DNA from: Nitrospina sp.
GTDB taxonomy: Bacteria > Nitrospinota > Nitrospinia > Nitrospinales > JACRGP01
Assembly (NCBI GenBank): GCA_024648695.1
Contig: JACAVV010000005.1
Location: 124,001 to 188,000 of the forward strand
DNA length: 64,000 nt
Reading direction: 5' to 3'
Numbering within the stretch: the first letter of the stretch is position 1; the number at the start of each line of letters is the position of its first letter. Positions 1,503 through 52,522 of this stretch are shown piece by piece. The position numbers were made by a program, and so were the translations under genes. The notes below the pieces were generated by a model. The model had not been told where the DNA came from. It searched no databases and was given only the letters and a program-made list of their open reading frames with translations.

Positions 1503-2219
1503 TCATGTCAGAACTTTAAAACTCACTTCCTTGACTTTTAGGGGCAACAAGGATAGTAAAGCGTAGAGGAAGATGGCCATACCCAGCATTTCCAGGCTTT
1601 CCTCAATAGTGGTCATCACCGTGTAAAGAAGGCTCATGGTTTCGGTGGTTTCATTATACAACCATCTGATATAGGCGCCGATCATCTCAAATCCCAAACA
1701 GCCTGAGATATAAACACCGCCAGCAACCGTGCAAAGCATACCGATGCGTTGGGGCAGAGCTTTTAAAAATTTATAATAAAACGCATACAACAATGGGAGA
1801 GCAATTAATGCGGGAATGACCCAGGCAAAATAAAAGGGCCCTGTGGCATGAAGTTCTCTTCGCAAGGGACTATTCAGGGTTTCATGAATGGTTGCGATTT
1901 CATCAAACGCCAGAAACAAGAATATAAAGGAAAGGGCGGTCCAGTGAAGCAAAAATTTTCTGCCATTATTTTTGCAATGAATGGTAATCACAAATAAAAT
2001 GAATGCATTGATCAATATAATAAAGGCAGAAAATGCCGTGGGTAAATTCGATTCGGCATTTAAAAATACGAGACGCGAAAAACCATGCAGGTTATTATCG
2101 CCAAAACCATACTTCGCAATTACAGCAATAGCGTTGAAGACGAACAAAATCCCAATACAAATCAAATGAAGCTTCAATACCTTTTTTGGAGGAATTTGTA
2201 ATTCCATATCTAATGTCAT
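1503..2219 (-). CDS. Uncharacterised integral membrane protein, about six TM segments
   Basis: A 238-residue hydrophobic protein with probable membrane segments near residues 15-37, 60-82, 88-108, 127-150, 160-178 and 207-228. The conserved-looking charged stretch F-D-E-I-A-T-I-H-E (about residues 104-112) follows the third segment, and an acidic T-T-I-E-E-S-L-E-M-L stretch precedes the last one. Acidic and histidine residues buried in or beside membrane helices can indicate ion or metal handling, but I do not recognise the family and assign no function. The start at 2219 has only a weak AGG about 12 bases upstream; a second ATG lies four codons in. It stands alone, convergent with the receptor gene and divergent from the acylation operon. 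Confidence 0.7.
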   Translation of the reverse strand: MTLDMELQIPPKKVLKLHLICIGILFVFNAIAVIAKYGFGDNNLHGFSRLVFLNAESNLPTAFSAFIILINAFILFVITIHCKNNGRKFLLHWTALSFIFLFLAFDEIATIHETLNSPLRRELHATGPFYFAWVIPALIALPLLYAFYYKFLKALPQRIGMLCTVAGGVYISGCLGFEMIGAYIRWLYNETTETMSLLYTVMTTIEESLEMLGMAIFLYALLSLLPLKVKEVSFKVLT

Positions 2220-2526: not shown

Positions 2527-5451
2527 GTGAAAAATGAAACCATAAAATCCTTATCATGTCCTATTTGCGGTATAATTTTTGAGATGCTCTCAAGAAAAGA
2601 AGAAAGGGAGTGCGTCATTTACGGATTGCTATTTTGTCCGCAATGCTTTGCCTCTGTCCCTGTTTTTAGCGGATTTCCAGTATTTTCCGAGATGAGTCCT
2701 TTAACAGGGGAACCCTCCCTTCAAGATTTAATGGATTGGGAAACACGTCTTTTTGGGCAAAGTAGAGAATATTCCCTGTTTCTGAATCAAAAACGGAACC
2801 GCCGGTCTTTTGATACCTTCGCCCTGTTTCATCCCTTCAATCCGATTTGCCGTACCTGGTTCAGTTTGTTCGAAGTATTGCGAAAAACCATTCGGCCCGG
2901 ACAATTGATCCTCGACACCTGGTGCCGGACGGGATGGTCCGGGGAGGCTTTGGCTTACCTGTTCCCGGAAAACCACATCATTTCAATCTGGGAGAGCAAT
3001 CACAGCATTCTGGGCTTTCGCGGGTTTCGTCATTGGTTGCCGGAACATGAGCGCGCCCCGAACTGGGACCTGATATTCTTCTCGCCCAAACAACGGCTTC
3101 CTTTTCGAACGAATGCGTTTGGCGCCCTGCACGCCCTCGACTCGGTTCACCTGTACCCGTTTTTTCCCTTTTTACCGGAATGCTTCAGGGTGACCGATCC
3201 AGACGGACTCCTCATTTTCCCGCACGTGCATTTAACTGATGGCAACCCGGATGCCTTTATCGCTGAAGAACGTGGCGGCCATATGCATCCTGCCAAAGAA
3301 TACGAGGATTACTTTTCAAGGATCTTGCAAGACGATGACCGGCGAATATTCATTATGTCCGAAATCGATTTGTTCAATGCCCGGGACGAATTTCAAATTT
3401 ACAATGATCCTCACCTGTCCCATTACAACGGCTTGTTTCTGGTCACTGACAAGAGGTGGCTGGGACAGGTAGCAGAGATTCCCGATTTCAAGGATGAATG
3501 GGATGAAACTTGGCGGGTGTTGAAGAATCCGCTGGTGGATATCGATCTTCATACCGGAGCCATTCCCTTTTCCTATGATGCTGTGGAGGGGCTTTGCGAT
3601 ACTTTATTACGGCTCCACCCAATTTACGCTGAGCGCATACAGGGAATAGAAAATGTGATTTTAAGCACGCGCCAATGCCAGATCATCTACTGGGCTCAGC
3701 GTTTACTTACTCTGGGTGAAATTTCTGAACGCACCGGTTTTTCGATGGAAACGATTAAGGAAGAGTTGGCCTTTCTACGAGACAATGAACTGGTGCAGGT
3801 CCATAAAACCACAGCGGCCATGACTCGTTTGCAAAACTATTACGGCACCCTGGAATTCGGGCCGGCCCATGCGGAAAACACTTTTTGCGAACTATGGAAA
3901 TCCGTGGCCTTGCGCTATGGATCCCGGCCTCTTCTCACCTGTGAAGATGGCAGTGCGTTCGATTTCGAGGATGCGGATACCCTGGTTCAGGCGCTGACCC
4001 GATTGTTCCATCAGCACGGACTGGAGCAAGGCGACCGTTTACTGATTCAGGCACACCCTCATCCTGAATACTGTTTCAGCATTTGGGCCGCTCTTCTGCA
4101 GGGTTTGACGGTCGTTCCCATCGATCCCGACTGGCCGGCAGGCCACATTGAAGATGCTGTTTCCCGTTCACAGGCGAAACTGATTCTTTGCGACGTTGCG
4201 AGTTACCGCCACCATTGCGATTCCTCCATTCCTCTCATGGTGTTTGATGAGATCAGGGAAAGTCCGGGAAGTGAGTTGGAATCCATTCCCGAAGAAATCT
4301 TTTTCAATAACCTGGTGAGCCCCTGTCTGGACAGTCCGCCGGCACCCGCCGTCCTGATGGATGAAAGTACACCCGCGGCTATCCTGTTCACTTCAGGAAC
4401 ACAGGGACGAAGCAAGGGAGTCGTTTTATCGCATGGTGCCCTGTACCGCTCTGGAAAGTCCATGGCTCAAATATTTGATTGGCGTGAATCCGACACCCTC
4501 CTGAATCTTGCCGGGATGCACACGATGAGCGGATTCCGTAATCCCTGTTTCAGTGCACTTCATAGCGGCACAACGATCTCCGTACCCGAGCCCGGTCTGG
4601 CGGATCACCCGGTGGCAGTGGCGGAAACAATTCGTTCCGGAAAAATCACCTTGCTGTTTTGTGTTCCCACATTCCTTGATCGCTTGTACGCCCAGAAATC
4701 CCGGTTAGCTCCCGGAGCTCTTTCGAGTCTGCAGAGGATCATGTGTACGGGAAGCCCACTTCGTGTTCAAACCGTGCAAAATTTTGAAACCGGATTTAAA
4801 ATTCCGGTGCGCAACTATTATGGCCTGACCGAGACGTGTGGTTTCTGCCTTGCGGTTCCCCTGGTGAATAGCGAACCGGAAGAAGGGAACCTTGGAATTC
4901 CTTCGGGAGCCATTATCCACATTGTGGATAATTCGGGCAAGGCCCTTCCCTGTAGCCAGACCGGCGAAATCGTGATATATAGCGACAACCTGATGCTGGG
5001 CTATCTGGATAATCCCGATCTGACGAACCGGATCCTGAAAAATGGGTGGTTACAAACGGGAGACTTTGGATACCGGAAAGAAAACGGGCATATTGTTTTA
5101 GTCGGGCGCAAGGACGACAGAATCAAGGACAAACGGGGTGAAATCGTTTATCCCGGTGAAATCGAAATCGCGCTGTTAAAACATCCGGACGTTAAGGAGG
5201 CGTCGGTTTTGAGTTATCCGGATAAAGACCGGGGCCAGCGTCTGGCGGCATTTCTTGTTACAGATTTGGCCGGGAGCGGTCAGGCTTCCCTGATCGATTC
5301 CCTGGAATCGCATATACAAACACAGCTGGGAATTCATAAGGTTCCCGCACGTTTCGAGTTGGTGCCTGAGATCCCGCGCACCTCCAATGGTAAAGTCGAT
5401 GTTCAACAATTAAGAAATACAGTGATCGATGCCACATCCAGACAGCAATAA
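2527..5451 (+). CDS. Methyltransferase-like / winged-helix-like / acyl-adenylating (ANL) fusion protein
   Basis: A 974-residue multidomain enzyme, first gene of the acylation operon. The GTG start is chosen because a zinc-ribbon-like pair, C-P-I-C-G and C-P-Q-C, would be lost or split by the next ATG at 2584. Residues about 95-310 resemble a class I SAM methyltransferase, with motif I as ILDTWCRTGWSGE near residue 127; the usual GxG is reduced to T-G, so activity is uncertain. Residues about 375-425 look like a helix-turn-helix or winged-helix segment (LTLGEISERTGFSMETIKEE). Residues about 435-965 form an ANL adenylation domain: P-loop LFTSGTQGRSKG near 619-630, NYYGLTE, QTGDFG, GRKDDRIKDKRGE and the C-terminal PRTSNGK with the catalytic lysine. 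The domain should activate a carboxylic acid as an acyl-AMP. There is no carrier domain; one is present on the next gene product, which overlaps this gene by 23 bases. Confidence 0.85.
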   Translation: MKNETIKSLSCPICGIIFEMLSRKEERECVIYGLLFCPQCFASVPVFSGFPVFSEMSPLTGEPSLQDLMDWETRLFGQSREYSLFLNQKRNRRSFDTFALFHPFNPICRTWFSLFEVLRKTIRPGQLILDTWCRTGWSGEALAYLFPENHIISIWESNHSILGFRGFRHWLPEHERAPNWDLIFFSPKQRLPFRTNAFGALHALDSVHLYPFFPFLPECFRVTDPDGLLIFPHVHLTDGNPDAFIAEERGGHMHPAKEYEDYFSRILQDDDRRIFIMSEIDLFNARDEFQIYNDPHLSHYNGLFLVTDKRWLGQVAEIPDFKDEWDETWRVLKNPLVDIDLHTGAIPFSYDAVEGLCDTLLRLHPIYAERIQGIENVILSTRQCQIIYWAQRLLTLGEISERTGFSMETIKEELAFLRDNELVQVHKTTAAMTRLQNYYGTLEFGPAHAENTFCELWKSVALRYGSRPLLTCEDGSAFDFEDADTLVQALTRLFHQHGLEQGDRLLIQAHPHPEYCFSIWAALLQGLTVVPIDPDWPAGHIEDAVSRSQAKLILCDVASYRHHCDSSIPLMVFDEIRESPGSELESIPEEIFFNNLVSPCLDSPPAPAVLMDESTPAAILFTSGTQGRSKGVVLSHGALYRSGKSMAQIFDWRESDTLLNLAGMHTMSGFRNPCFSALHSGTTISVPEPGLADHPVAVAETIRSGKITLLFCVPTFLDRLYAQKSRLAPGALSSLQRIMCTGSPLRVQTVQNFETGFKIPVRNYYGLTETCGFCLAVPLVNSEPEEGNLGIPSGAIIHIVDNSGKALPCSQTGEIVIYSDNLMLGYLDNPDLTNRILKNGWLQTGDFGYRKENGHIVLVGRKDDRIKDKRGEIVYPGEIEIALLKHPDVKEASVLSYPDKDRGQRLAAFLVTDLAGSGQASLIDSLESHIQTQLGIHKVPARFELVPEIPRTSNGKVDVQQLRNTVIDATSRQQ

Positions 5452-7309
5452 TCTGCCTCCTTTAAACCAGGGCGCAAAAGAACAAAAACCCGACAAACTG
5501 TTTTTGTCCGCGGGTTCAAGTTTGTCCTACGGAAAACTGGAAGAGACGATACACAAGCTTTCTACCTGGTATCGCCAAAAAGGGATGACATCTGGCCAGC
5601 GCACAATTTTGGCGTGTCAGGACGATCAGATTTCAGCCATATTTTTTCTGTCCATGTTACGCAATGGCCTGGTGCCTGTACTGATCGATCCCGAGTTGAC
5701 CGACCGCGAGTTCAGGGAAATCATCGAGTTTTCCGAACCTGAAGGGATCGTGGCCGACGTGGGCCTGCTAAAAACCTGGAATCGTGATAGCTGGATTTCC
5801 GAAAGGACAATAATGCTTCCGGTTGTTCAGAAAACCAGACAAAGCGGCAATCTGTTCAATAAACTACTGGGCAAGAAAAAAGCGGATCGCGTGGAACCTG
5901 AAAACCCCGATGCCTACCCGCATATCCTGGAAGCGCTCGAAGAATCCGGTCCCGGAGGCGTCCAGGACGCCAGTCAGCTGGCCTATATTCTGTTCACCTC
6001 CGGAACCACTTCCAGGCCGAAGGGTGTTGAGATCAGCCACGGTGCCCTGATGGCGCACTTGCAAACTCTGAGAAACCAGTTTGGGTATAACGAGCAAACG
6101 CGCCTGCTCAATCTGCTTCCATTAAACCATGTGGATGGAATGATTCACGGTCCGGTGCTCAGCTATTTTTGCGGAGCCAGTTTGTTCCGACCCTGCCAGT
6201 TCCAGCCCCAGTCGGTCCAGTTGGTCTGGGACACTCTTTATGCTGAACGCATCACCCATTTCCTGGCCGTCCCCACCATGTTCGCCCTGCTCATACAAAT
6301 GGAGGACACGAACCACCCTCCCCTGAATTGTGAAGACCTGCAATGTCTGATCTCAACAGGTGCAGGCATGCCTGAATCGCTTTGGAAACAATTGGAAGAG
6401 CGGTTTCAAATGCCTCTATGCAATTTTTACGGTATGACAGAAACCGTCACCGGCGGACTTTTCTGCGGACCCGATAGCGACACCCGTAAAATGGGTACCG
6501 TGGGCAAGCCCGTCGACTGCGAAATTCGTATTGTTGACGATTCTGGGGCAGAAGTTTCCCAGGGTACTGCTGGAGAATTGTGGATTCGGGGGGCTAATAT
6601 CATGACCGCCTATCACCGTGCGCCGGACGAAACGCAAAAAGTTCTGCGGGACGGATGGCTGGTTACAGGAGATCTGGCGCAACAGGATCCCTGTGGCTTC
6701 GTTTCAATCGTGGGCAGGAAAAAGAATCTGATCATTACCGGCGGACGCAATGTGAATCCGGAAGAGGTGGCGCGTGTGTTATGCCAGCATGAAGCAGTGG
6801 CCACCGCTACTGTAGTCGGTTTGGACGACCCGGTGTGGGGCGAATCGGTTTCTGCCTGTGTGGTGCCCGGGAATAATCATTTGCCGGACGAGACGTCACT
6901 GATAGAATTTTCGCGCAAGCTGTTGGCCCCGTATAAAGTTCCCCGGCAAATCCTGATTGTGGATGAGTTACCAAAAGGCAAGTCCGGAAAGGTTGCCCTG
7001 CAAAAAGTGAAGGATCTGTTTTTGAACAGGGCGTCTGCAAACGCCAAGGTTGCAATCGATCTGGAGCAAACCGTTTTCGATCTGGCCGCAAGCAGTTTTA
7101 ATACGCAACCGGACAAACTCAATCTCGCATCGCGGCCGGAAAATACGCCTGGCTGGGACTCCTTCGCACACATGAATTTGATCATGGCCCTGGAGCAAAG
7201 CTTTAACATATCCCTCAATGCCCGCGAGGTGATGGGCGTCCAGTGTCTGGAAGATGCCGTGACCACTGTGCGCAAACTCACCGGTTCCGGCCCAGACCCC
7301 GAATTGTGA
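5429..7309 (+). CDS. Acyl-adenylating enzyme fused to a C-terminal acyl carrier protein domain
   Basis: A 626-residue protein with an N-terminal ANL adenylation domain: P-loop LFTSGTTSRPKG near residues 187-198, with S replacing a usual G, then NFYGMTET, VTGDLA, GRKKNLIITGGRNV, and GKSGKV holding the C-terminal lysine. Residues about 545-620 form an acyl carrier protein-like domain with P-G-W-D-S-F-A-H-M-N; the serine near residue 577 sits where phosphopantetheine is attached in ACP/DltC proteins (usual motif DSL, here DSF). This is the combination of DltA plus DltC in one chain: activate an acid, then load it on the attached carrier. The start overlaps the previous gene by 23 bases, and the stop overlaps the next GTG start by 4, so translation is probably coupled. 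The substrate, an amino acid, acetate-like or longer acid, is not evident from sequence. Confidence 0.87.
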   Translation: MPHPDSNNLPPLNQGAKEQKPDKLFLSAGSSLSYGKLEETIHKLSTWYRQKGMTSGQRTILACQDDQISAIFFLSMLRNGLVPVLIDPELTDREFREIIEFSEPEGIVADVGLLKTWNRDSWISERTIMLPVVQKTRQSGNLFNKLLGKKKADRVEPENPDAYPHILEALEESGPGGVQDASQLAYILFTSGTTSRPKGVEISHGALMAHLQTLRNQFGYNEQTRLLNLLPLNHVDGMIHGPVLSYFCGASLFRPCQFQPQSVQLVWDTLYAERITHFLAVPTMFALLIQMEDTNHPPLNCEDLQCLISTGAGMPESLWKQLEERFQMPLCNFYGMTETVTGGLFCGPDSDTRKMGTVGKPVDCEIRIVDDSGAEVSQGTAGELWIRGANIMTAYHRAPDETQKVLRDGWLVTGDLAQQDPCGFVSIVGRKKNLIITGGRNVNPEEVARVLCQHEAVATATVVGLDDPVWGESVSACVVPGNNHLPDETSLIEFSRKLLAPYKVPRQILIVDELPKGKSGKVALQKVKDLFLNRASANAKVAIDLEQTVFDLAASSFNTQPDKLNLASRPENTPGWDSFAHMNLIMALEQSFNISLNAREVMGVQCLEDAVTTVRKLTGSGPDPEL

Positions 7310-8250
7310 AACCTGAAAGAGCGGCTCCCTGGTCCGTCTGGATCGGAGCCCTGTTTTTTACAAGTCTGTTTTTTCTTTTGAAGCCTTTACTCCTTGCCTG
7401 GTTTCCTGTAGAGAATGCCGGATTGATGAACCGCGGCTTCCTGAAGTTCAACCGGGACCGGCTGGTTAAACTTCAAAGCGGCCTCACAGGTTCGAATAAC
7501 ACAACCATACTGGCTTTGGGGACTTCAACCCTGATTTCAGCCATCATTCCTGATCCCGAATTTCAAAATCGGCTGGAACAGAAAGGGAACATGCCCAACC
7601 CGGGCTGGATGCGGATCGTCATGCAGGGCGGAACTTTCCATATATACCGGCAATTGCTTCCGGACTTGATTAAATCCAAAGCAGATGTCGTGATAATTGA
7701 ATCTCATTTGTTCAAGGAAAACATCTGGTCCTTTACCTGGAGATACCGCCTGTTTTATTCGCGATTGGTCACCTATATTAAATCTCGTCTACTGGAATCC
7801 CGTCCTGAGAGTCCCTGGGAGAAACAATTGGCTTTCCAGGCCTGGCTTCAAAATTTGATTCTTGAAGAATGCCCTGAAAAACCCGATTCCTACCAATACC
7901 TCCAGCAAGTACGTCGGGTCGTCGAAACCCGAAGAAAGGTTTTCGTTGAAGACGAATTTACTTCCGCCAAAGCTTTTTTAAGGTCCCTGACGGAAGCGGG
8001 GATTCATGTGATCCTTCTGGATCTGGCCTACCATCCCAAAGTCGAGGGAGGGGCTCCCTACCTTTCCGAGTGGCGTTCCCGTCTGAAAAGTATATCAGAC
8101 ACCACATCAGGGCTTGAATATGTCCCGCTGGGCCATACACTTGCGGCCTCACATTTTTGTGATGTGCGTCATTACAATCACTCGGGAAGAGAACAGATCA
8201 GTGAACGTTTGATCGAGGTTTTGAATCAAATAAAGGACGGCGCCTCATGA
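7306..8250 (+). CDS. Membrane-anchored SGNH/DltD-like acyl-transfer protein
   Basis: 314 residues from the GTG at 7306, which forms a GTGA stop-start overlap with the previous gene; the longer frame from 7243 would run 67 bases into that gene. One N-terminal membrane segment (about residues 10-31) is followed by a probable periplasmic SGNH-hydrolase-like domain. The candidate nucleophile is S74 in L-A-L-G-T-S-T-L. The C-terminal D286-x-x-H289 in C-D-V-R-H-Y-N-H-S-G is the Asp-His pair of this fold. DltD and AlgJ/AlgX-type proteins of this kind work beside an MBOAT protein in O-acylation of surface polymers. The next gene is an MBOAT, overlapping by ATGA. Overall sequence similarity to DltD is not visible by eye; the role is inferred from motifs and context. 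Confidence 0.8.
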   Translation: MKPERAAPWSVWIGALFFTSLFFLLKPLLLAWFPVENAGLMNRGFLKFNRDRLVKLQSGLTGSNNTTILALGTSTLISAIIPDPEFQNRLEQKGNMPNPGWMRIVMQGGTFHIYRQLLPDLIKSKADVVIIESHLFKENIWSFTWRYRLFYSRLVTYIKSRLLESRPESPWEKQLAFQAWLQNLILEECPEKPDSYQYLQQVRRVVETRRKVFVEDEFTSAKAFLRSLTEAGIHVILLDLAYHPKVEGGAPYLSEWRSRLKSISDTTSGLEYVPLGHTLAASHFCDVRHYNHSGREQISERLIEVLNQIKDGAS

Positions 8251-9404
8251 TGGACCTGACTGTTCATTCCCTTCAATACCTCCTGTGGATTGCCGGTACC
8301 CTTGCGGCGTACTGGATGTGTCCGCCCAGGGCACGGGCCTGGATGCTGATTGGAATATCCGCCCTGTTCCTGGCTATTTATTCATGGGATTCGCTACTGG
8401 CGCTGACTGGTCTGGCCCTACTGGGATACTTTGCGGTCAACATGGCTTCTTCGAGTTCATCGCGGTGGGGAGACGCGGGATTATTGGGTCTGGCAGTCAT
8501 TTTCCTTGTCTATAAAAGTTTCATTTCTGTAGAAGGAGCCGGAATACATCAGGGATTTTTTCTTTTGGGCTTCTCTTACTATATATTGCGAATCCTGCAT
8601 GTGATGGAAGATACCCGGCGCGGCAACCTGCCCCAATATTCGCTGGAACAATACCTGCGCTATCTGTTTTTCCTGCCCACACTGCTGGTGGGTCCAATAC
8701 ACCGGTTCAGTGAATTTTTACGCGATACCGGGCGAGTGCGCTGGAATGGAGCCATGGTATCTGAGGGCCTCGAACGCATACTTTACGGATATGCCAAAAT
8801 TGTCATACTGGCCAACTATCTGATTGTGAGCAAACTGTCGTTATTGGCAGGGACCCCCGGACCGGAACACGAAGCGTTGAAAGCGTATTTCTCCTGCCTG
8901 CTGTACGGGATGAATCTCTATCTTCAATTTGCAGGATTTTCTGATGTAGCGATCGGTTTTTCCCTGTGCCTGGGTTACCGTGTGATGGAAAATTTCAATT
9001 GGCCTTTCTTTCAGCACAATATTTCCGAATTTTGGCGGTCCTGGCACATTTCATTGTCTTCCTGGTGCCGCGATTATATCTATATGCCCGTTCTGGCTAT
9101 TACAAGAAAACCGGGTTTCGCCGCATTTTGCGCCATGGTGGGGATTGGTATCTGGCATGAACTGTCCTTACGTTACTTGCTGTGGGGGGCCTATCATGGC
9201 CTGGGAATTCTCGTTTGGCAAACGTGGCAAGGATGGAAAACCCGGCTACCTGAAATCCGGCATCCCCTGGCCCGGTGGAGTTTGAAGGTGCTGTCGGTCT
9301 TGTTGACCCTTCATTTTGTGATGCTGGGATTCATGCTGACGAAGGAAGAAACCCTGATGGAGTCCTGGAAGGGTTACCAGGTCCTGTTTTCAGGAGTGTT
9401 TTGA
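8247..9404 (+). CDS. MBOAT-family membrane-bound O-acyltransferase (AlgI/DltB-like)
   Basis: 385 residues, polytopic. MBOAT hallmarks are clear: F-L-P-T-L-L-V-G-P-I-H-R-F-S-E-F near residues 141-156, A-G-F-S-D-V-A-I-G-F near 230-239, F-W-R-S-W-H-I-S-L-S with H267, and the invariant membrane histidine H317 in L-L-W-G-A-Y-H-G. In DltB and AlgI this fold passes an acyl group from a cytoplasmic carrier through the membrane. The length is somewhat shorter than AlgI (about 470-520) and near DltB (about 400). It overlaps the SGNH gene by 4 bases and is followed 2 bases after its stop by a 45-residue membrane microprotein. The acyl donor is probably the carrier domain of the 5429 gene product. Confidence 0.92.
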   Translation: MMDLTVHSLQYLLWIAGTLAAYWMCPPRARAWMLIGISALFLAIYSWDSLLALTGLALLGYFAVNMASSSSSRWGDAGLLGLAVIFLVYKSFISVEGAGIHQGFFLLGFSYYILRILHVMEDTRRGNLPQYSLEQYLRYLFFLPTLLVGPIHRFSEFLRDTGRVRWNGAMVSEGLERILYGYAKIVILANYLIVSKLSLLAGTPGPEHEALKAYFSCLLYGMNLYLQFAGFSDVAIGFSLCLGYRVMENFNWPFFQHNISEFWRSWHISLSSWCRDYIYMPVLAITRKPGFAAFCAMVGIGIWHELSLRYLLWGAYHGLGILVWQTWQGWKTRLPEIRHPLARWSLKVLSVLLTLHFVMLGFMLTKEETLMESWKGYQVLFSGVF

Positions 9405-9406
9405 CC

Positions 9407-9544
9407 ATGTACGCCTGGCTTTCCAGAACATTTCCCGTTCCCGTGGCAAAAACCCTGGCCGCTTTATGGTACGCCCTGTTGATGTTTATGGTTTTTATGC
9501 TTTGGGATATACCCACCGGAGTATTTGGTTATCTCAACTTGTAA
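9407..9544 (+). CDS. 45-residue single-pass membrane microprotein, DltX-like candidate
   Basis: The frame starts with ATG two bases after the MBOAT stop and ends with TAA at 9542-9544. It encodes a basic N-terminus with aromatic residues, one membrane helix (about residues 14-34) and a short tail ending G-V-F-G-Y-L-N-L. Small single-pass proteins of about 50 residues called DltX accompany DltB in Gram-positive dlt operons and carry a conserved C-terminal motif with an aromatic residue and a tyrosine needed for acyl transfer. The F-x-Y placement three to six residues from this C-terminus resembles that motif. The resemblance is by size, topology, position in the operon and tail motif only. It could also be a chance hydrophobic frame, but the spacing and uninterrupted coding argue for a real gene. 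No strong ribosome site is seen, which fits coupling to the MBOAT. Confidence 0.65.
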   Translation: MYAWLSRTFPVPVAKTLAALWYALLMFMVFMLWDIPTGVFGYLNL

Positions 9545-9562: not shown

Positions 9563-10288
9563 TCAACTCAGAGCCGAAGCAATCTCGTCGAGAATTTTCC
9601 GAGCCGCCTCTTTGGGGTCAGTTGCCTTGCGAATAGGGCGACCCACTACCAGGTAGTCGGCTCCATCGCGGATGGCCTCTGTTGGCGTGGTGATGCGGGA
9701 CTGATCGTCTTTATCCAACCGGCTCCATTCCGGCCGAATTCCAGGAACCACCAGATGAAGTCCATCTCCAACGGCCTGACGAATGGCCGATACCTCTTTT
9801 CCGGAGCACACCACTCCGGCGCAACCGGCCTCTTTTGCAAACACGGCTCTTTGGACTGCAAGGCGAGACAAGGTCAAACCTTCTTGAATTCCCAGAGCCT
9901 GCAAATCGTTTCCCGACAGACTGGTGAGCACGGAAACGGCCAGAATCTCCAATCCTGCGGAACTCAACTCCTCAGTGGTTTTGGACAGCACTTCCCCTTC
10001 CTGACAATGAACCGTCACGAATCTCACTCCGTGCCGGGCGGCGGAACGTAAGGCACCACGCATGGTTGCCGGGATGTCATGAAGTTTCAAATCCAGAAAA
10101 ATATCCGCGTCACTGAGTTCCTGAATAGCATCTATGACAGAGGGGCCTTCACTGATGAAGAGTTCCAGGCCGACCTTGAAACATCCAACAAGGCCATTCA
10201 ATTGCTTGACACTGGAAAGCGCCCTTTCGCGATCGGGAAAATCCAGGGCGAATATGAGTCGGTCTTTGGCTTGGGAGGGAACGATCAT
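9563..10288 (-). CDS. pyrF: Orotidine 5'-phosphate decarboxylase
   Basis: About 241 residues from ATG 10288; a TTG three codons upstream (10297) is an alternative, and neither has a good Shine-Dalgarno. The catalytic signature F-L-D-L-K-L-H-D-I-P-A-T-M is present (the D-x-K-x-x-D pattern of all orotidylate decarboxylases). The N-terminal L-I-F-A-L-D-F strand, V-V-P-G-I-R-P-E phosphate-binding loop and C-terminal Y-L-V-V-G-R-P-I-R are also present. It decarboxylates OMP to UMP, the last step of pyrimidine synthesis, in the cytoplasm. The length is normal for the PyrF1 type. It lies 46 bases downstream of the TPR gene on the same strand, with a GC-rich hairpin between them, and converges on the acylation operon. 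Confidence 0.96.
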   Translation of the reverse strand: MIVPSQAKDRLIFALDFPDRERALSSVKQLNGLVGCFKVGLELFISEGPSVIDAIQELSDADIFLDLKLHDIPATMRGALRSAARHGVRFVTVHCQEGEVLSKTTEELSSAGLEILAVSVLTSLSGNDLQALGIQEGLTLSRLAVQRAVFAKEAGCAGVVCSGKEVSAIRQAVGDGLHLVVPGIRPEWSRLDKDDQSRITTPTEAIRDGADYLVVGRPIRKATDPKEAARKILDEIASALS

Positions 10289-10300
10289 GGAGAGCAAACA

Positions 10301-29267: not shown

Positions 29268-31016
29268 TCACTTCAAAAGACGTCGCAACTTTTCTGCCTG
29301 CGGTTGATTGGGCGCTAATTCCAGAGAGCGCTTGAAATATACCCGCGCCTGCCTGGAATCTTTCAGGTGATAAAAATAGAGGACGCCCAAATTTAGAAAC
29401 GCAATATCATAATTGGGGTCCAGTTCCACAGCCCGTTTTAAATGGCGTTCGGCCAACGCGAATTCCTTTTCTCCCATATAAATTTCCCCCAATCGACCCT
29501 GTATTTCCGGGACTTCCGGTTTAAGCACCGCGGCATATTTCAAGTGTTGTAATGCATCCTGAATCCTGCCGAGTTCCATATACAAATCCGCCAGATTATA
29601 ATGCGGCTGAAACAGGTTCGACTTCACACTTAAGGCCTTTTCATAAAGCTGAATCGCTGACAAGGCGTCTCCCGACATAGTGTAACCACGGGCCAGGTTG
29701 ATCAAGGGCCTGACTTTATTCGGTGATTTCTTTGCGGCATCCTGCCAAAGCATTTCCTCGCTTTTCCACACTTCCAGTCTTAGCAGGGTTGCCACGAAAA
29801 AAAATATCAGAATCCCCACAAACAGCGTTGGTCCCAACAGGGTGGATATTCCGGAACCCTTCTTTCGGCCCCCCTTCGAAGCTAAGCCTGCCAGAGGAAC
29901 CACAGCCAGGAAAAATCCGATCGACGCCAAATACACCCGGTGTTCTGCGGCCAGGTCCTGCAAGGTAATGATAGACGAAGATGGCGACAGAACAGCAATA
30001 AACCAGAATAGCCCAAACAGGCAAATAACACGATATCTGGAAAAATACAGAGCGGATGCTAAAACCGCCACGCAGGCCAGAGACGCCCACAACTCAAACT
30101 GCGCGGGATGCATGATGGGCGAAATGTCGGGATCGACATTCAAATTAAAGGGAAATAACAGTAGCCTTATGTAATAAAAACAGATGACCCAGGGCTGGGT
30201 CATCATATAGGGTTTTCTTCCCACCATGGACTCCGGCGAGGCGGGTCCCAATAGAAAACTTTCATCCGAAAACAATTTGCGGAAAAACGGAATCATCACT
30301 GCCAAAAGCGCAACCAGAAGGATCCATTTATATCGTTTGATGAGGGTCCACAATGAGGATTGGGGTCCCGCTACCAGCAAACCGTAAACCAGGGCTATGG
30401 CGGGAAAGGTGATCAATGTTTTTTTTATACTGAAACCGAGAACCCAAATCAAACAAACCGCCACGCAGGCTCCCAGTCCTTTAAGGTCCCATTTCTTACT
30501 CCATCCCATCCAATTTTGAAACACCCAAAAAGCCGCCAGATAAAAGCTTCCAGCCAAAACCTCCGACCGGCTGATGATATAGGCCACCGATTCCGTTTGA
30601 ATGGGATGTACCAAAAACACCAGCGCTGTAAAACACGGCAAACGCCAGCTGTTTTCAAGACCCTTTGGATCGCCCTGGAAAAACAACTGCTGATATCCTT
30701 TTTGGCAAATGTTAAGAACCAGAATCGCGTTGAGAGTATGAAATAGCAAGTTAAACAAATGATACCCAAAGGGCGAATCCCCTCCCAACAGTTTGTTTAA
30801 TGCAAAAGACATGAACAACAAGCCGCGGGAAAAATATCCGTTTATAAAATAATCCCAGGTTAAAAGCGATTGGGGATCCCGAAGTTTGAGGTTGTTGGCG
30901 ATAAAGGCCACACCGTCATATTGAAAGGGACCCGTAAAATGCTGAAAATAAGCCAGGATTCCGGAAATACAAATCAGGGCAAAAACAGTAACTCGTGTTG
31001 GGATCCGGGTTTTCAT
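29268..31016 (-). CDS. TMTC-like membrane protein with C-terminal TPRs (third of three paralogues)
   Basis: 582 residues. About ten membrane segments (residues 10 to about 410) precede four TPR units (about 430-580, for example A-I-Q-L-Y-E-K-A-L-S-V-K-S-N). The first extracytoplasmic loop F-Q-Y-D-G-V-A-F-I-A-N-N corresponds to the F-x-x-D-D-x-x-x-I-x-x-N segment of TMTC/PMT-like proteins, with G in place of the second D. Eukaryotic TMTC proteins O-mannosylate other proteins; bacterial members are mostly unstudied. It overlaps its upstream neighbour by 4 bases (ATGA), the last in a three-gene set, with rtcA following. A glycosyltransferase role is an inference from architecture. Confidence 0.83.
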   Translation of the reverse strand: MKTRIPTRVTVFALICISGILAYFQHFTGPFQYDGVAFIANNLKLRDPQSLLTWDYFINGYFSRGLLFMSFALNKLLGGDSPFGYHLFNLLFHTLNAILVLNICQKGYQQLFFQGDPKGLENSWRLPCFTALVFLVHPIQTESVAYIISRSEVLAGSFYLAAFWVFQNWMGWSKKWDLKGLGACVAVCLIWVLGFSIKKTLITFPAIALVYGLLVAGPQSSLWTLIKRYKWILLVALLAVMIPFFRKLFSDESFLLGPASPESMVGRKPYMMTQPWVICFYYIRLLLFPFNLNVDPDISPIMHPAQFELWASLACVAVLASALYFSRYRVICLFGLFWFIAVLSPSSSIITLQDLAAEHRVYLASIGFFLAVVPLAGLASKGGRKKGSGISTLLGPTLFVGILIFFFVATLLRLEVWKSEEMLWQDAAKKSPNKVRPLINLARGYTMSGDALSAIQLYEKALSVKSNLFQPHYNLADLYMELGRIQDALQHLKYAAVLKPEVPEIQGRLGEIYMGEKEFALAERHLKRAVELDPNYDIAFLNLGVLYFYHLKDSRQARVYFKRSLELAPNQPQAEKLRRLLK

Positions 31017-32959
31017 GGTTGGGGCACGTCTTTCATAGTTTGGGCAATTTTCATCAGTTTTTGGGTTTTCTCGTCATCGGGTTTCATTTGCAATACACGT
31101 TCAAGATGCACGCTGGCTTCTTCATACCGCTTCTGCACCAGATACACATTGGCCAGATTGGCGTGGCCTTCCAGACTGTCGTCTTCAAGGGCCAACGATT
31201 TTTTAAATGCTTCTTCAGCAAGGTCCAGCGATTTGATGTTCCAGAAAATCACGCCGATGTTGTTTTGCGCGGAGGCGTATTCCGGCCTCAACGCCAAAGC
31301 CTTGCGAAACATTTTCAAAGCGGAATCGTTACGCTTTGTGTGCATCAGCGCATTGCCCAGAGCAAAATAAAACTCCGGCACCTCCGATTTCATTCGTATC
31401 GCGCGCTGAAGCAAAGGAATAGCTTCGTCATAACGCTTTACCATATTGCGCGCCAAACCGGCATTATAAAATGCCCAGGGGTCCTTGGATCCCGAGAAAA
31501 TGGCTTCGTCAAATTTTTTGATGGCGGATTCCCAATCATTGCGCTTGGCCATCAAATTGCCCAAATTGACCAATGCATAAGAATAATAGGGATTCAATTT
31601 GAGGACCGCCTGCAATACCCGTTCGGCATCGCCATAGCGCTCCTCCTTTATATAATTGCTTGCAAGATTGTTAAAAACCAAAATCTTTTGCGGTGACTTT
31701 TTTAACGTGTCTTCCCAAATCTGAATCCGCGATCTGAAATCAAGGCTCCGGTGCACTGTGAGCAGGGAAAATATAATTAAGAAAGAGAAAAACACCGGCC
31801 GCACTGTGGGAATCGTTTGACTAAAACGTAGCCAAACCCCTGCGAGAATGATTTCCAATCCAATGCCCGGAAGGAAAGCCCGGTGCTCGGTCACCACCTG
31901 CTTCAAGGGAATGATGCTGGATGTGGGCAAAATGCAAATTCCCGCCCATATCCAGGCAAACCACAACCACTTTTGCCGACTCCGAAAAATGGCGACATTC
32001 AAAACCAATAAAACGCCCAAACTGGTAATTACAAATGGATCGCTCCACCCTTCCACCAAACGGGTGTCGGACTCGAAATTAAGTCCTACCGGAATCCATT
32101 GCTTCAACAGATAATAAAACGTCATAAACTTTATCTGCGAAAACAGGTACAGGTCTCTGGGTATCAATTGAAATGAGGGATCGGCCGGAAGAGAAAACAG
32201 CACACCCAAACGATAATAACGAAACCCCAAATACAGGAGGATTAAACCGGTCAGGAGTGCCCCGGCCTTTACTATCCCTGCTTTCATCCCAGCGGTATCG
32301 CGCAGGCATAAGTAAATGAAAACCATCACCGGTAAAGTGACGATGGTTTCCTTCACTCCGGCTCCCATCACAAATCCCAAAATGCCACAAACCAAAAGTA
32401 GGAGGGAAGGCTTTTTTTCAACCCCAGCCTGGCCCGTGAAGTATCGTATCAAACAAAAAAATGAGAGTAGATAGAATGCGGTTACCAGCAAGGCGGAACG
32501 GCTGGACAGGTAAGTGACCGCCTGCACCGAAAGCGGGTTCACAGAATGGATCAAAGTGGTCGCAAGGGGCAGAGACTTTTTAAATGCGGGGTCCAGACCA
32601 GAATCCAGCTTCATGCACTCCTTCGCCAACAGGTACACCAGTATACTCACGCAGACATGAAGAATAACGTTGAGCAAGTGGTATCCGAACACATTCTCCC
32701 CGCCCAGGGCAAAATTGACCGCCCAGCTCAACAGCAAAACCGAACGGTTGAACAGGTTGCCGATCCCCACCACCTGTTGGAATTCGGCCAGATTTTTTAT
32801 GTAAGGATTGCCAACGATAGCGTGGGCATCGTCGTAAACGAAGGGAGCCTGAAAGGTTCCGAAATACACAAAAATACCCGAACAGGCGATTACCATGAAG
32901 GCATTCACATGCCTCGAAAATGTTCTTGGGAAGAAGTGGTTTCGTTCGGATAAATTCAA
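31013..32959 (-). CDS. TMTC-like membrane protein with C-terminal TPRs (second of three paralogues)
   Basis: 648 residues with the same layout as its neighbours: an N-terminal polytopic part (to about residue 400) and a TPR part (about 425-640, roughly six units such as A-S-A-Q-N-N-I-G-V-I-F-W and A-Y-N-A-like A-F-Y-N-A-G-L-A-R-N). The first loop reads F-V-Y-D-D-A-H-A-I-V-G-N-P, the only one of the three to keep both acidic residues expected in TMTC/PMT-type enzymes. This makes it the likeliest catalytically active member. The ATGA overlaps on both sides indicate translational coupling. The substrate (lipid-linked sugar or other) is unknown. Confidence 0.83.
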   Translation of the reverse strand: MNLSERNHFFPRTFSRHVNAFMVIACSGIFVYFGTFQAPFVYDDAHAIVGNPYIKNLAEFQQVVGIGNLFNRSVLLLSWAVNFALGGENVFGYHLLNVILHVCVSILVYLLAKECMKLDSGLDPAFKKSLPLATTLIHSVNPLSVQAVTYLSSRSALLVTAFYLLSFFCLIRYFTGQAGVEKKPSLLLLVCGILGFVMGAGVKETIVTLPVMVFIYLCLRDTAGMKAGIVKAGALLTGLILLYLGFRYYRLGVLFSLPADPSFQLIPRDLYLFSQIKFMTFYYLLKQWIPVGLNFESDTRLVEGWSDPFVITSLGVLLVLNVAIFRSRQKWLWFAWIWAGICILPTSSIIPLKQVVTEHRAFLPGIGLEIILAGVWLRFSQTIPTVRPVFFSFLIIFSLLTVHRSLDFRSRIQIWEDTLKKSPQKILVFNNLASNYIKEERYGDAERVLQAVLKLNPYYSYALVNLGNLMAKRNDWESAIKKFDEAIFSGSKDPWAFYNAGLARNMVKRYDEAIPLLQRAIRMKSEVPEFYFALGNALMHTKRNDSALKMFRKALALRPEYASAQNNIGVIFWNIKSLDLAEEAFKKSLALEDDSLEGHANLANVYLVQKRYEEASVHLERVLQMKPDDEKTQKLMKIAQTMKDVPQP

Positions 32960-35235
32960 GATGCAGACAATTCTTCGATGAGGCGGACCAGTTCGTCGGC
33001 ACGCTCCTGATTGGGATTGAGCTTCAAAGCCCGTTTCAGGTGGCTCAACGCGGCCGGTTTATCTTTCCGTACCTGCCAGAGCAGTGTTCCCAACTGCCGG
33101 TGAAGCTGATGGATTCCTGGATCGCGGGCAACCGCCTCCTGGAAAAGCTCAATCGCCGGATCGTATTTCCCATCCTGCATATAGACACCGGCAAGGTTAA
33201 TCCGCGCCTTATTATACCCCGGATCGAAGGCCAGGGCTTTATTATAATATTCCCTGGCCCGGTCCCAGTGTTCCAGGTTCTGATGGCTCCAACCCAGATT
33301 AAAATACGCTTGCGCCGAAGCCCCGGAAACCTCCAGCAGAGTTTCCAACTCGCGGATGGAACGCACCCACTGCCGGGTCGCCTGGTACAAGTACGACAGG
33401 TTAAACCTGGCTTTGTCGAAACCAGGATCGTGTTTCAAACATTCCCGATACGCAGATTCTGCCTGCACCATATCGCCTAATTGGGCGTATGCGACTCCTT
33501 TATTGAAGTGGGCCTGCACCATATTGGGTTGATGCTTAAGCGCTATCTCCCATTCGGCCAGGGCGTCTCTCATTCTCCCCTGCTTGCCGTAAACCTCGCC
33601 GATATTCAGTCGCGCCATCGGGTAATCGAGCGCCCCGATAGCCTGCTGTTTTTCAATCGACCTGCGATATTGCCTTACAGCCTTCTCGTATCGGCCCGTC
33701 TGGTTGTACACCGAACCCAGACTGAAATAGGCGTTCGTGTGATCGGGGTTCAATTGCAAAACGGTTTTCAATTCCGCTTCGGCTTCACCGTATTTTTTTT
33801 GATCCAGATACAAGTTGCCCAAATTATAATGCGGCTCGGGAAAAAGTGAAAACAGGCTGATGCTTTTTTTAAACAGCGCCTCCGCTTTGTCCCATTCCTG
33901 AATTTCGTAATACGCCTTGCCCAGGTTGCTATAGGGCCGCGACTTTTCAGGTGACTTCTCCGTAGCGTCGGCCCACAATTTGAGGGTGGAACTCCAAACC
34001 AGGTTGCGGTCTGCCGTCGCTACCGACAGACACACCACCACCATCACACTCGCTGATTTTAGAAAGGTTGAAATCCTATGGCCGCGATTTGATTTCCAAA
34101 GCCACATGATCGCTGAGGAAAAAATAAACGCAACTCCCAGAAATGGAAGATACACACGGTGCTCTGCTGACAAATCGTACAGGGTCACAATGGAGGACGA
34201 AGGTGAAACGACAATAAAAAACCAGCACACAAAGAAAAAATATATCTTGTTGCGAAATCCGCGAAAACTGATTAAAAAACTCAAAATGATCACAGCCAGA
34301 GGAATCAGCAAGTGCAGAGAATACCAGGTGTGGACAATCGGAACGTCGGGATCGACATTCAAATTGAAAGGAAACAGCATCAAGCGCAAATAATAAAAAA
34401 TCACTACCGAGGGCTGACTCATCATATAGTTTTGCCGCCCGATCCAGAGTCCCGCCGTTGAAGGTCCGGTCAAAAACGATTCATCACTCAACAATTTCCA
34501 GAACAAGGCAACAAGGAACACCATGCCCGCCAGCGCAATCCCTTTCCACCAGCGCTTTAAATTTTTAATGGGTTTCGATTCCGCTGGCAAAATACACAGC
34601 CAGTACAAAACCAGGATTGCAGGAAAAGTGGCGACCGATTGCTTGAAGCCGAATCCAAGGATTCCAGCCAGAACGACCCCGGCCATTAAAAAAATCCCTC
34701 TTACACGGCGGCGGTCCGCTCCCAGCTCAAGCCATCGCTGAAACCCGTAAACACCCAACAGAAAAAAGGTTGCTGAAAACACTTCCGAACGGCTGATCAC
34801 ATAAATCACCGATTCGGTCTGAATCGGGTGTACCAGGAAAATCATGGCGGTCAATAAAGCGAGCGACTGACGCCCAGGCGGTTCGGACTCACAGCTTTCT
34901 GAAAAGTGGACCTGCGCCTTTCGTATTACCTGATACACCAGCAAGGCATTGAACCCGTGAAAAACCAGATTCATCAGGTGAAATCCGAAAGTTTGGAGTC
35001 CACCCAAAACGGCATTGATCCCCAAACTGAACCAAAGCAAGCCGCGAGAAAAATATCCCCCCAAAGCAAACTCCGGTTTGAGGGTATCTTCCGGATGATT
35101 CAACCAGGGGTTATCTTGTATGTGAGGAATGCTATCGAATTGAAACGGATTCTGCAGGTGATTTGCGAAAACACCTATAGTCAAAAAAGCTAGGACAATG
35201 CTGGCCAAAAATGTAGAGTGAGCAAAAATGCGCAT
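32956..35235 (-). CDS. TMTC-like membrane protein with long TPR tail (first of three paralogues)
   Basis: 759 residues and first in the three-gene operon. Membrane segments occupy residues 1 to about 410. The first loop reads F-Q-F-D-S-I-P-H-I-Q-D-N-P, keeping one acidic residue of the usual pair. The TPR tail (about 430-755) is the longest of the three, with about nine units (for example A-H-F-N-K-G-V-A-Y-A-Q-L-G and A-Y-F-N-L-G-W-S-H-Q). The tail probably faces the periplasm and binds acceptor proteins. No good Shine-Dalgarno precedes ATG 35235. It is divergent from the sigma-54 activator gene across a 404-base gap. Confidence 0.83.
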   Translation of the reverse strand: MRIFAHSTFLASIVLAFLTIGVFANHLQNPFQFDSIPHIQDNPWLNHPEDTLKPEFALGGYFSRGLLWFSLGINAVLGGLQTFGFHLMNLVFHGFNALLVYQVIRKAQVHFSESCESEPPGRQSLALLTAMIFLVHPIQTESVIYVISRSEVFSATFFLLGVYGFQRWLELGADRRRVRGIFLMAGVVLAGILGFGFKQSVATFPAILVLYWLCILPAESKPIKNLKRWWKGIALAGMVFLVALFWKLLSDESFLTGPSTAGLWIGRQNYMMSQPSVVIFYYLRLMLFPFNLNVDPDVPIVHTWYSLHLLIPLAVIILSFLISFRGFRNKIYFFFVCWFFIVVSPSSSIVTLYDLSAEHRVYLPFLGVAFIFSSAIMWLWKSNRGHRISTFLKSASVMVVVCLSVATADRNLVWSSTLKLWADATEKSPEKSRPYSNLGKAYYEIQEWDKAEALFKKSISLFSLFPEPHYNLGNLYLDQKKYGEAEAELKTVLQLNPDHTNAYFSLGSVYNQTGRYEKAVRQYRRSIEKQQAIGALDYPMARLNIGEVYGKQGRMRDALAEWEIALKHQPNMVQAHFNKGVAYAQLGDMVQAESAYRECLKHDPGFDKARFNLSYLYQATRQWVRSIRELETLLEVSGASAQAYFNLGWSHQNLEHWDRAREYYNKALAFDPGYNKARINLAGVYMQDGKYDPAIELFQEAVARDPGIHQLHRQLGTLLWQVRKDKPAALSHLKRALKLNPNQERADELVRLIEELSAS

Positions 35236-45099: not shown

Positions 45100-48000
45100 T
45101 CAATTCACTCCACTAAATTGGGGTTGATTTAATGCCCGGGAATCCTGGGCATCGCCCACGAATTCCATTGCGAAACCCGTACTGGTGGCTTGCACCACCA
45201 CTGCTCCCCAAAAATTCAACATCGTGATATCAGGATAGCCGCTGTTTTGAATGGTCTCCGTATTGCTGGCTTTAGCCGCTATGGCGAGTTGACCGTGCTT
45301 GCCTGACGTGGTTCCAACAATAAACTCCGCATTGGGTACGGTGGCCGGATTGATAACCGGGTTATTCGTGCCTACAATGAAAACTCTTCGCGTGCTGTTC
45401 GCTGAAACCGTGAACTCTGCCGCCGGGCCAAAGGGTGCCTGGTCAGACTGGACGGCATTCATTACCAGGCCGACCTCGGAACTGATGTCCTGTAATCCGG
45501 GATGGGTTACGGCAATGAAAGTGTATGTGGCGTTATCGGCCTGCCAATAGGGAGAGATCACCCGGTTCTTTTTAGCCGTCTGGAACGGATCCGGCATCAG
45601 GGTTAAGTCAAGGGCCACGGTTCCCAACTCTTCGCCAGTGCCCTGGTCAGTCACCTTAACCGATGTGCTGTGAATTCCGTTCTCAAGGTTGCCTATGCCC
45701 GCATTAATGACCATGGTGAAGGTTGCCGTTTGGCCAGGATCCAGCGTTACCGGCACCGTATCTGCCTGAACCGGAGCCAGGTCATGCCGAATGGCGACAT
45801 CGAGGGAGACTGGATGATCAGTGATCTGGGGATTGGGATCGACATTGAACCAGGTGCTGATCGGCGTTACACCAAAAATTTTCTGTGCGTCAAAATTATT
45901 CGTGATTGAAAATTTACTTTGTGACTGGTTGCACCGGCCTAGAAAACAGGACGGATTGAACGGCCTTTTGTCGATGGTTATATTGGGGTTATTAATAAAC
46001 CCTATATTGGGTCCGATTTGCACGTCTACCGATCCAGTAGCAAAAGCTAGCATGTCGTTAGTCACATCGACGGAAAGTGTGCAGGTCTGGATGATTCCCG
46101 TGGTGTTATCGGGTGCGGGCCAAAGAGTACTGGGTCCAAACCCTACAAATCCGTTATTGCCGCCACCCCAGGACAGGCAATTCGCGTTCCAGGTGTAACC
46201 CAGAGGTCGACCTGCCGAATCTTCAGCCGTCACGCTTAAAACTACCGGACTGCGTGGATTAACCGTTTCCGGATTTGCTGTAGGACCATTGGTAATTGTA
46301 ATAGTTTGGTCCGCCGGGGTCAGTGTAAAGGTGGTCGTGGCGGAGCGATGGTCCAGTTCAACCTTTACGGTGACATTATGTGTTCCTGCCGTTGGGTTTG
46401 GCCACGTGACTCTGCCCGTTGAAGGATCAACCACCATCCCCGCAGGCCCGGATTCCAAAGTCCAAATAGGGCTACCCCCCTGATCGTTAGCAAGGTAATC
46501 CTCAATCAAAACACCCTCTGGAGAATCCCATGTACCACCTTTTGCCTTCATCTCATTCACGATAGCACTCCAGCAGGCCCTGGTTTTGCAGGGTTTACCG
46601 ACATGGGATTTAATTGCTTCCGTTAAGGCATTGGATGATTTTAAAGTCCACGCACCCTGTCTGACGTTTAAAATGTTTTGTGTGGAATGACAGAAAGTAC
46701 AAAAAGACTCCACCTCGGCCTGTCCGTTTCCAGGGGGCAGGTCGGCTCCGGGAGCAATACCGAGAACAGGAGTGATACTACTGTATGCGAAATGTTCAGA
46801 AAATGTGCTATCAGTCAAACCGAAAACAAGAAGGGCATTCAATACATCAAAACTTTCCGTGGCGATAGCGTCGGATACTTCTAGTGAAAAGCTGGCAGTC
46901 GCCTCCCTGTTATCCTTCACTGCCTTAACTGTAATGCTGTGAGTACCTTCCGTGGGACTGGCCCAGTTTATCACTCCTGTGGTGCTGTCAATTGTCATTT
47001 CTGCTGGACCTGATTCCAGTGACCAGACCGTAGCCGTATCTTTATCGTTGGAGAGGTAATCGACTATCAAAGTGCCCACCTCGGTACTCCAGGTACCACC
47101 ATTGTCGACCATGGCGTCAACTATATCCTGCCAGCAGGTACGCGTTTTACACTTGTCTCCCTGGTTGTGGTTGGGCAAGGCCAGGGTGGTTCCATTGGAG
47201 TGAACCTCAAGAATCTTTTCAGTACCATGACAGGAAGTGCAATTGGTGTTCACTTCGGCCAGTCCATCCCCGGGAGGCAATTCAGTGCCCGTAATGGTGT
47301 CAGCAGAAGGTGTGGCGCTTTGAAATGGAGCGGTTGTGAAAGCGTTTTCGGTAGTATCACTAAAACCCGCAATCACCAGGGTGTCCAATAAATCCGGGTT
47401 CTTGACGACGGGTCGGGTCGCTGTGATCACAAAAGTTTCTGTATCTTCACGATGATCGGTAACGGCTTTAATCGTGACAGAATGAATGCCCGGTTTGGGT
47501 GTGGCCCAACTGACCACTCCGGTAGTACTATCAATGGTCATGCCGTCGGGCCCTGAAACCAGCGACCAAACCGTGGCCGTTCCTTTATCATTGGCCAGAT
47601 AATCAACCATCAATACGCCATCTCCTGCGCTCCAGCTTCCGCCTTCAGCGACCATGTCGTCGATAATATCCTGCCAGCAAGCGCGCGTCATACATTTATC
47701 CCCCAGGGTGTGGTTCGGCAAGGCGCGCGTGGTTCCGTTGGCGTGGACCTCAAGAATCACTTCGCTGACTGTGGGGTCGGGAGCGCTATGACAACTGGCG
47801 CAATTGGATTTTAATTCGGCAAGGCCCGGTCCAGGGGGTAACTCGGTGCCATCAAGCACAATGATAGAGGGGATCAAGCTGGTAAACACCGAGTCAGTAG
47901 TGATCGACACATCGCCCAGGGGGGCAATGAAGACCAAATTCAACAAGTTCGGTTGTACTGAAATCACAGGGCTCACCACAGTCAGACTAAAGCTGGCGGT

Positions 48001-52113: not shown

Positions 52114-52522
52114 TGTGTTCCTCCATTGGAAGCCCAACGATATTATCCTTTTTGGAATTAAACCTTCAAATTCCTTTAATTTCAAAAGGCGGGAATGTGC
52201 AATCAGACTAATTAGAAACCAGCATCTGGAATATGGGAATATTGTTCTGTCAAAATTATACAGAAATAATTTTCTTAACCTACATCCCAATAGATTAATT
52301 TTTGAAACAGCTTGATTAACCCTTTTAAATCAATGATGAGTTTTGATCCGAAATTAAATTTCGCCAGATAAAATTATCAGAGTTATGAACATCGAGTGGG
52401 AGTCTTAAGTTCTAAAAAATGGATGGGAAGATTTGATGGCGGTGGTGGAATTGGGATATTTTAACATTCAATAGAAAGGGAGCACGCAGGATCAAATTAG
52501 TTAAGCTAATTTAAAAGGGAAA
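52114..52522. other. Leader and intergenic region upstream of the giant gene
   Basis: About 410 AT-rich bases upstream of the giant gene and downstream of the LMF-like gene on the same strand. The promoter of the giant gene should lie here. I see no hairpin terminator or operator I can support. Confidence 0.4.

Follow-up and report, generated by a model that had tools for sequence, protein, structure and literature searches.

Two arrangements of MBOAT-SGNH acylation have been distinguished to date, namely the Dlt pathway, which works with a carrier and the microprotein DltX, and a set of other pathways that use acyl-CoA and carry the shuttle motif fused to the MBOAT itself (PMC12148441, 2025). 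The mechanism by which a C-terminal hexapeptide holds the acyl group on a Tyr is established for DltX and PatA, and the non-Dlt MBOAT pathways are stated to be devoid of a DltX-like microprotein (PMC12148441). Dlt (DltX, DltA, DltB, DltC and DltD) combines an ANL enzyme, a carrier, a short MBOAT and an SGNH protein with a separate single-pass microprotein bearing the Tyr in its C-terminal hexapeptide, whereas PatA/PatB (peptidoglycan O-acetylation) and the AlgI/WssH-type systems of Gram-negatives pair an MBOAT with an SGNH protein, have the C-terminal Tyr hexapeptide fused to the MBOAT, and draw on acetyl-CoA as donor (PMC12148441). The original prediction for the DNA studied here took known dlt operons to act on teichoic acids in Gram-positives; this part has to be corrected, as dlt operons are already reported in Dickeya and Pectobacterium (cited in PMC5541007), and Dlt outside Gram-positives is accordingly not in itself new.

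The Nitrospina operon described below, found in a window of 64 kb (the whole stretch of DNA analysed), shares with Dlt all of the parts just listed. It departs from Dlt in having its carrier fused to an ANL enzyme, a second ANL enzyme with a methyltransferase (MTase)-like domain, a microprotein that follows the MBOAT and is unmatched by the DltX model, no DltA-type FDxS site, a separate MBOAT clade with WHE in place of the WHG of Dlt, and diderm hosts. From PatA/PatB and AlgI/WssH it differs by placing the motif on a microprotein and by encoding a carrier. The Dickeya and Pectobacterium operons are likewise Dlt-type genes in diderms; they are described as dlt homologues (PMC5541007), and they are set apart here by description only.

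Layout and parts of the operon

The five genes (Table 1) overlap by 23, 4 and 4 nt, with a 2-nt gap before the last, so that the tight coupling first predicted matches the ORF coordinates exactly; the start of gene 3 is a GTG at 7306, within the overlap with the TGA of gene 2. A convergent pyrF (9563-10297, minus strand) lies 18 nt past the operon end, and an ORF at 222-1454 encodes a TonB-dependent receptor. Scans for promoters and terminators gave no signals in excess over shuffled sequences. The Nitrospinota host is taken here to be a diderm, and teichoic acids are not expected in the diderm hosts of the operon.

Table 1. Coordinates of the operon genes, their key residues and related features; entries with an L number lie in other loci
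Feature	Position	Strand	Size or residues
Gene 1: Trm112-like zinc ribbon at the N-terminus, then class-I-methyltransferase-like domain, helical C-terminal segment, ANL1	2527-5451	+	974 aa
Gene 1, ANL1 AMP-binding part	about 3907-5394	+	
Gene 2: ANL2 adenylating enzyme with fused carrier domain	5429-7309	+	626 aa
Gene 2, carrier domain	about 7061-7264	+	phosphopantetheine Ser578 = 7160-7162
Gene 3: membrane-anchored SGNH (DltD/PatB-like) protein	7306-8250	+	314 aa
Gene 3, catalytic residues		+	Ser74 = 7525-7527; Asp286 = 8161-8163; His289 = 8170-8172
Gene 4: short MBOAT with WHE signature	8247-9404	+	385 aa; His304 = 9156-9158
Gene 5: single-pass microprotein, C-terminal FGYLNL	9407-9544	+	45 aa; candidate shuttle Tyr42 = 9530-9532
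Possible accessory gene, divergent: multi-pass membrane protein (membership uncertain)	1503-2219	-	238 aa
Radical-SAM/SPASM gene beside microprotein	L024:10936-11880		
Radical-SAM/SPASM gene beside microprotein	L025:11207-12136	-	
Radical-SAM/SPASM gene beside microprotein	L033:11260-12204		
Radical-SAM/SPASM gene beside microprotein	L062:10615-11568		

The predicted part list of two adenylating domains, a carrier, an MBOAT, an SGNH/DltD-like protein and a DltX-like microprotein is backed by Pfam, alignments and an AlphaFold model. Pfam recognizes the AMP-binding and C-terminal domains in both ANL proteins, and both keep the ATP-binding loop, the YG(L/M)TE, GD and GR motifs and the catalytic Lys. 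The carrier domain reaches only a sub-threshold Pfam match (E 0.025); its Ser, on whose presence the prediction depended, is invariant within a GW(D/T)S motif in all 15 aligned members. For the gene 3 protein no sequence-family match was obtained and BLAST of a DltD against it returned no similarity. Its AlphaFold model (pLDDT 81.9) matches SGNH esterases, DltD and PatB, and model and alignment together reveal an SGNH fold, a catalytic Ser and an Asp-x-x-His motif, with Ser74 and His289 invariant and Asp286 nearly so among 14 members. One related operon carries two SGNH-type genes in tandem (L034:5422-6339 and 6332-7219), which suggests two acceptors or a relay.

Further features of the window were noted in passing. 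The divergent 238-aa membrane protein belongs to no known family and has a relative, 35% identical over 221 aa, just upstream of the operon in a Lewinella MAG (L026:3045-3746), and in no other locus. Farther away lie three tandem ORFs of 582-759 aa (29268-35235, minus strand) that encode apparently paralogous membrane proteins whose N-termini are alike (FQ/VYD... around residue 30), and a single ORF of 2396 aa (45100-52290, minus strand).

The MBOAT and its microprotein

The gene 4 product is an MBOAT (PF03062, E 1.5e-23) that keeps the catalytic-type His when aligned to the solved DltB. This His304 is invariant in 27 of 27 WHE-type family members and in the references; the residue that follows it is Glu in all 27 family MBOATs and Gly in two DltB and four AlgI/PatA-type references, making WHE (versus WHG) a possible diagnostic signature of the family. 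The family MBOATs end where DltB ends, whereas fused-motif MBOATs extend 69-121 residues further, and a C-terminal FxYxxF on extra transmembrane helices was found in 0 of the 27. Two other MBOATs of the source genome are of the fused type, with the endings FIYFQF and FIYYQF; the shuttle motif is missing from the gene 4 MBOAT and the adjoining microprotein gene carries FGYLNL instead. Against TIGR04091, the DltB equivalog model, the gene 4 MBOAT scores 180 bits, short of the 375-bit cut-off, and the two fused-motif MBOATs score 154 and 148. In a tree of 33 MBOATs the family separates from both DltB and the fused types (support 100/98), and would thus form a clade outside DltB, a placement that is thinly sampled given that DltB is represented by only two sequences, which sit on a long branch. 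The description 'Dlt-like' therefore holds for the way in which the system would work and fails as a statement of membership.

A protein of 45-49 aa follows the MBOAT in 26 distinct loci. Trp21 and Tyr42 are invariant in a 24-member alignment, and the Tyr stands at position -4 from the C-terminus in 25 of the 26 microproteins and at -5 in the remaining one (L033). Typical endings are FRYLNI, FTYLNL, FLYLAL and FRYIDY, and two Nitrospinota microproteins end in IVYWDE and IVYWDQ; the hexapeptide is thus looser than FxYxxF, its last residue being L, Y, I, M, F or W. Each microprotein has one hydrophobic stretch, preceded in nearly all by a net positive charge, a pattern that fits an N-in/C-out orientation. 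Because dN/dS lies between 0.09 and 0.44 in the six computable pairs, we regard the microprotein as being under purifying selection. At one locus (L021) it is cut by the contig end, at another (L036) none was found behind the MBOAT, and at the Sulfitobacter plasmid locus (L045), where it is unannotated, the sequence IIYIDL is followed by four further residues.

A blind search of 399 Pseudomonadota genomes with a microprotein profile picked up a single genome other than the seed (E 2e-10), in which the microprotein starts 1 nt past the MBOAT stop within an ANL1/ANL2-carrier/SGNH/MBOAT operon. Profile searches of Pfam and PDB that started from the microproteins yielded nothing useful. The DltX family PF12459 matches 0 of 24 microproteins and nothing at the Nitrospina locus, and in neither of the two reference dlt plasmids was a DltX recognized ahead of dltA. 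A mention of DltX in a Bordetella hinzii paper turned out to abbreviate lung transplantation.

Putative acyl-making modules and occurrence in other genomes

As judged by alignment, the residues at the position of the DltA FDxS site are HxDG in ANL2 and SGxR in ANL1; since both are without FDxS, the acyl group is probably not D-alanine. ANL2 scores as acyl-CoA-ligase-like. The presence of two ANL enzymes and a methyltransferase-like domain was predicted to fall outside the classical dlt set, and indeed these parts have no Dlt counterpart. As for the methyltransferase assignment, the fold stands and the cofactor site is altered: the region is modelled with a class-I MTase fold (pLDDT 83.5) and Foldseek matches it to SAM methyltransferases, with modest TM-scores over the whole query, but its motif I, conserved as (D/N)xW(C/D)R(T/S)G (DTWCRTG or a near form) in members covering the motif, is not the usual glycine-rich one, as Trp and Arg replace two SAM-binding glycines. 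The domain may therefore not methylate. A Trm112-like zinc ribbon sits beside it in several members.

Among loci with ANL1, eleven have the MTase-like domain, four have a radical-SAM/SPASM gene, and none has both; the probability of zero overlap under random assortment is 1/1365, a count that ignores relatedness and leaves out Roseitalea-type ANL1 loci, which have neither module. The MTase-like domain is absent genome-wide from two of the radical-SAM genomes (G079 and G081). Other loci are equipped differently again, with a sulfotransferase-family gene between the ANL-carrier and the MBOAT in a Paraglaciecola MAG (L023:9076-9978), or with a long ANL-X-carrier protein preceding the family MBOAT (L013:1585-4107 and L022:7572-9962), the X part of which spans about 250 residues and has no Pfam match. 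These gene contents suggest that the transfer core is constant and that the acyl-making module varies.

The same gene content, when sought in other genomes as the prediction invited, recurs in unrelated ones. We found the operon core in about 28 loci spread over eight Gram-negative phyla, rearranged in places and incomplete where contigs end, these phyla being the Bacteroidota, Chlamydiota (Waddliaceae), Planctomycetota, Thermodesulfobacteriota, Myxococcota (so labelled in the tree, for a MAG recorded as 'Deltaproteobacteria'), Nitrospirota, Nitrospinota and Pseudomonadota; 24 loci from named organisms came out of a single scan using the MBOAT alignment. Cultured bacteria with the operon include Spirosoma panaciterrae, Imperialibacter and Desulfopila. 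Such recurrence outside the host argues that the arrangement is not due to chance. Within the Nitrospinota the operon is rare and patchy, a close MBOAT being present in 3 of 61 genomes and the MTase-like domain, among 77 genomes searched, only in the source genome and in Nitrospinaceae bacterium OFTM181 (G033), which belongs to the same order. Of approximately 395 Bacteroidota genomes, 2 besides the seed genome have the MTase-like domain, one as a full operon (L058) and one as an ORF at a contig end (L059). The MTase-ANL1 fusion itself occurs in Bacteroidota, Chlamydiota, a gammaproteobacterium and the Nitrospina operon. A search of plasmids with the MTase-like domain gave no match; a related ANL/SGNH-like/MBOAT locus does lie on the 72.7-kb Sulfitobacter pontiacus plasmid NZ_CP049347.1 (L045:1108-4932).

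Two Nitrospinota loci bear directly on the packaging. In OFTM181 (L007) the gene order is ANL1, ANL2-carrier, SGNH, MBOAT, a 48-aa microprotein and the MTase-like protein, so that ANL1 and the MTase-like protein are separate genes of the same operon, whereas they are fused in the Nitrospina operon. The unusual packaging of gene 1 is thus best read as a fusion of two operon partners, and it is because the domain is fused to ANL1 in one genome and is a separate operon gene in the other that we tie it to the pathway. In a further genome (G020, contig 8; L006) the last 30 residues of the SGNH protein remain together with an intact MBOAT and an intact microprotein, and ANL2 is absent from the whole genome; this locus is a decayed remnant and not a system that does without ANL enzymes. 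It is the sole exception among relatives, in which MBOAT/SGNH pairs are otherwise accompanied by the ANL genes.

Proposed pathway, alternatives and meaning

We consider it likely that the five genes serve a single pathway of envelope acylation, similar to Dlt in its working yet a family of its own rather than a form of Dlt. The parts and their catalytic residues are observed, and every transfer step that follows is drawn from Dlt and PatAB chemistry. ANL2 would adenylate an organic acid and load it as a thioester onto Ser578 of its own carrier, with ANL1 and its fused MTase-like domain supplying or tailoring the acid. The MBOAT would carry the acyl group through the inner membrane and place it on Tyr42, within the periplasmic hexapeptide that ends the microprotein. 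The microprotein would pass it on to Ser74 of the SGNH protein, which is anchored in the membrane and would transfer it to a glycan or lipid acceptor in the periplasm or at the surface. The invariant carrier Ser, and the fact that MBOAT and SGNH travel with the ANL genes, support the single-pathway reading originally put forward; the looser hexapeptide, the Tyr at -5 in L033, the four extra residues in Sulfitobacter and the lack of a microprotein in L036 speak against it.

A true Dlt pathway acquired from Gram-positives and D-alanylating LPS or another anionic polymer would account for the identical part list and for the 180-bit match of the MBOAT to the DltB model, and the Dlt homologues of some Gram-negatives are thought to act on LPS (PMC5541007). 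It is nevertheless unlikely, given a score far below 375 bits that the fused-motif paralogues nearly equal, an MBOAT clade placed outside the two DltB sampled, an acyl-CoA-ligase-like ANL2 without FDxS, microproteins that the DltX Pfam model does not match, and two ANL enzymes and an MTase-like domain foreign to Dlt. Quite unlikely, too, is a route in which a secreted small molecule or natural product, rather than an envelope polymer, receives the acyl group. The ANL-carrier and MTase-like or radical-SAM parts do resemble natural-product tailoring enzymes. Against this reading, the surroundings of the operon yielded no genes for a synthase, for export or for resistance, and the acylation described for MBOAT-SGNH pairs with a shuttle motif is that of polymers (PMC12148441).

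One could also suppose an ordinary PatA/AlgI-type acetylation MBOAT whose C-terminus had been split off by a frameshift or an annotation boundary, given that the motif at the end of the microprotein is similar to the one fused to the genome's other MBOATs. This is highly improbable. The split falls at the same place with a near-constant length of 45 aa in 26 loci of eight phyla, the fused types have 69-121 further residues, and acetyl-CoA needs no dedicated ANL-carrier; the constancy of place and length, together with purifying selection on the microprotein, led us to reject a frameshift-split MBOAT.

Returning to the reading of a separate envelope-acylation family, we found no description of it in the freely available full-text papers searched. 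Across eight Gram-negative phyla it is an exception to the rule of no microprotein outside Dlt (PMC12148441). More tentatively, at somewhat less than an even chance, it may represent a third class of MBOAT-SGNH envelope acylation in diderms, with a constant core (ANL-carrier, SGNH, WHE-type MBOAT and 45-aa shuttle microprotein), acyl-making modules that can be exchanged (such as a radical-SAM/SPASM enzyme or a domain of methyltransferase fold that lacks the usual SAM motif) and an acyl group new to bacterial surfaces. The 45-residue peptide, which one annotated record misses, offers a specific handle for finding such pathways, and the exchange of MTase-like and radical-SAM modules makes the identity of the acyl group testable. 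The family points to a candidate new surface decoration among environmental bacteria, some of them related to nitrite oxidisers or to chlamydiae.
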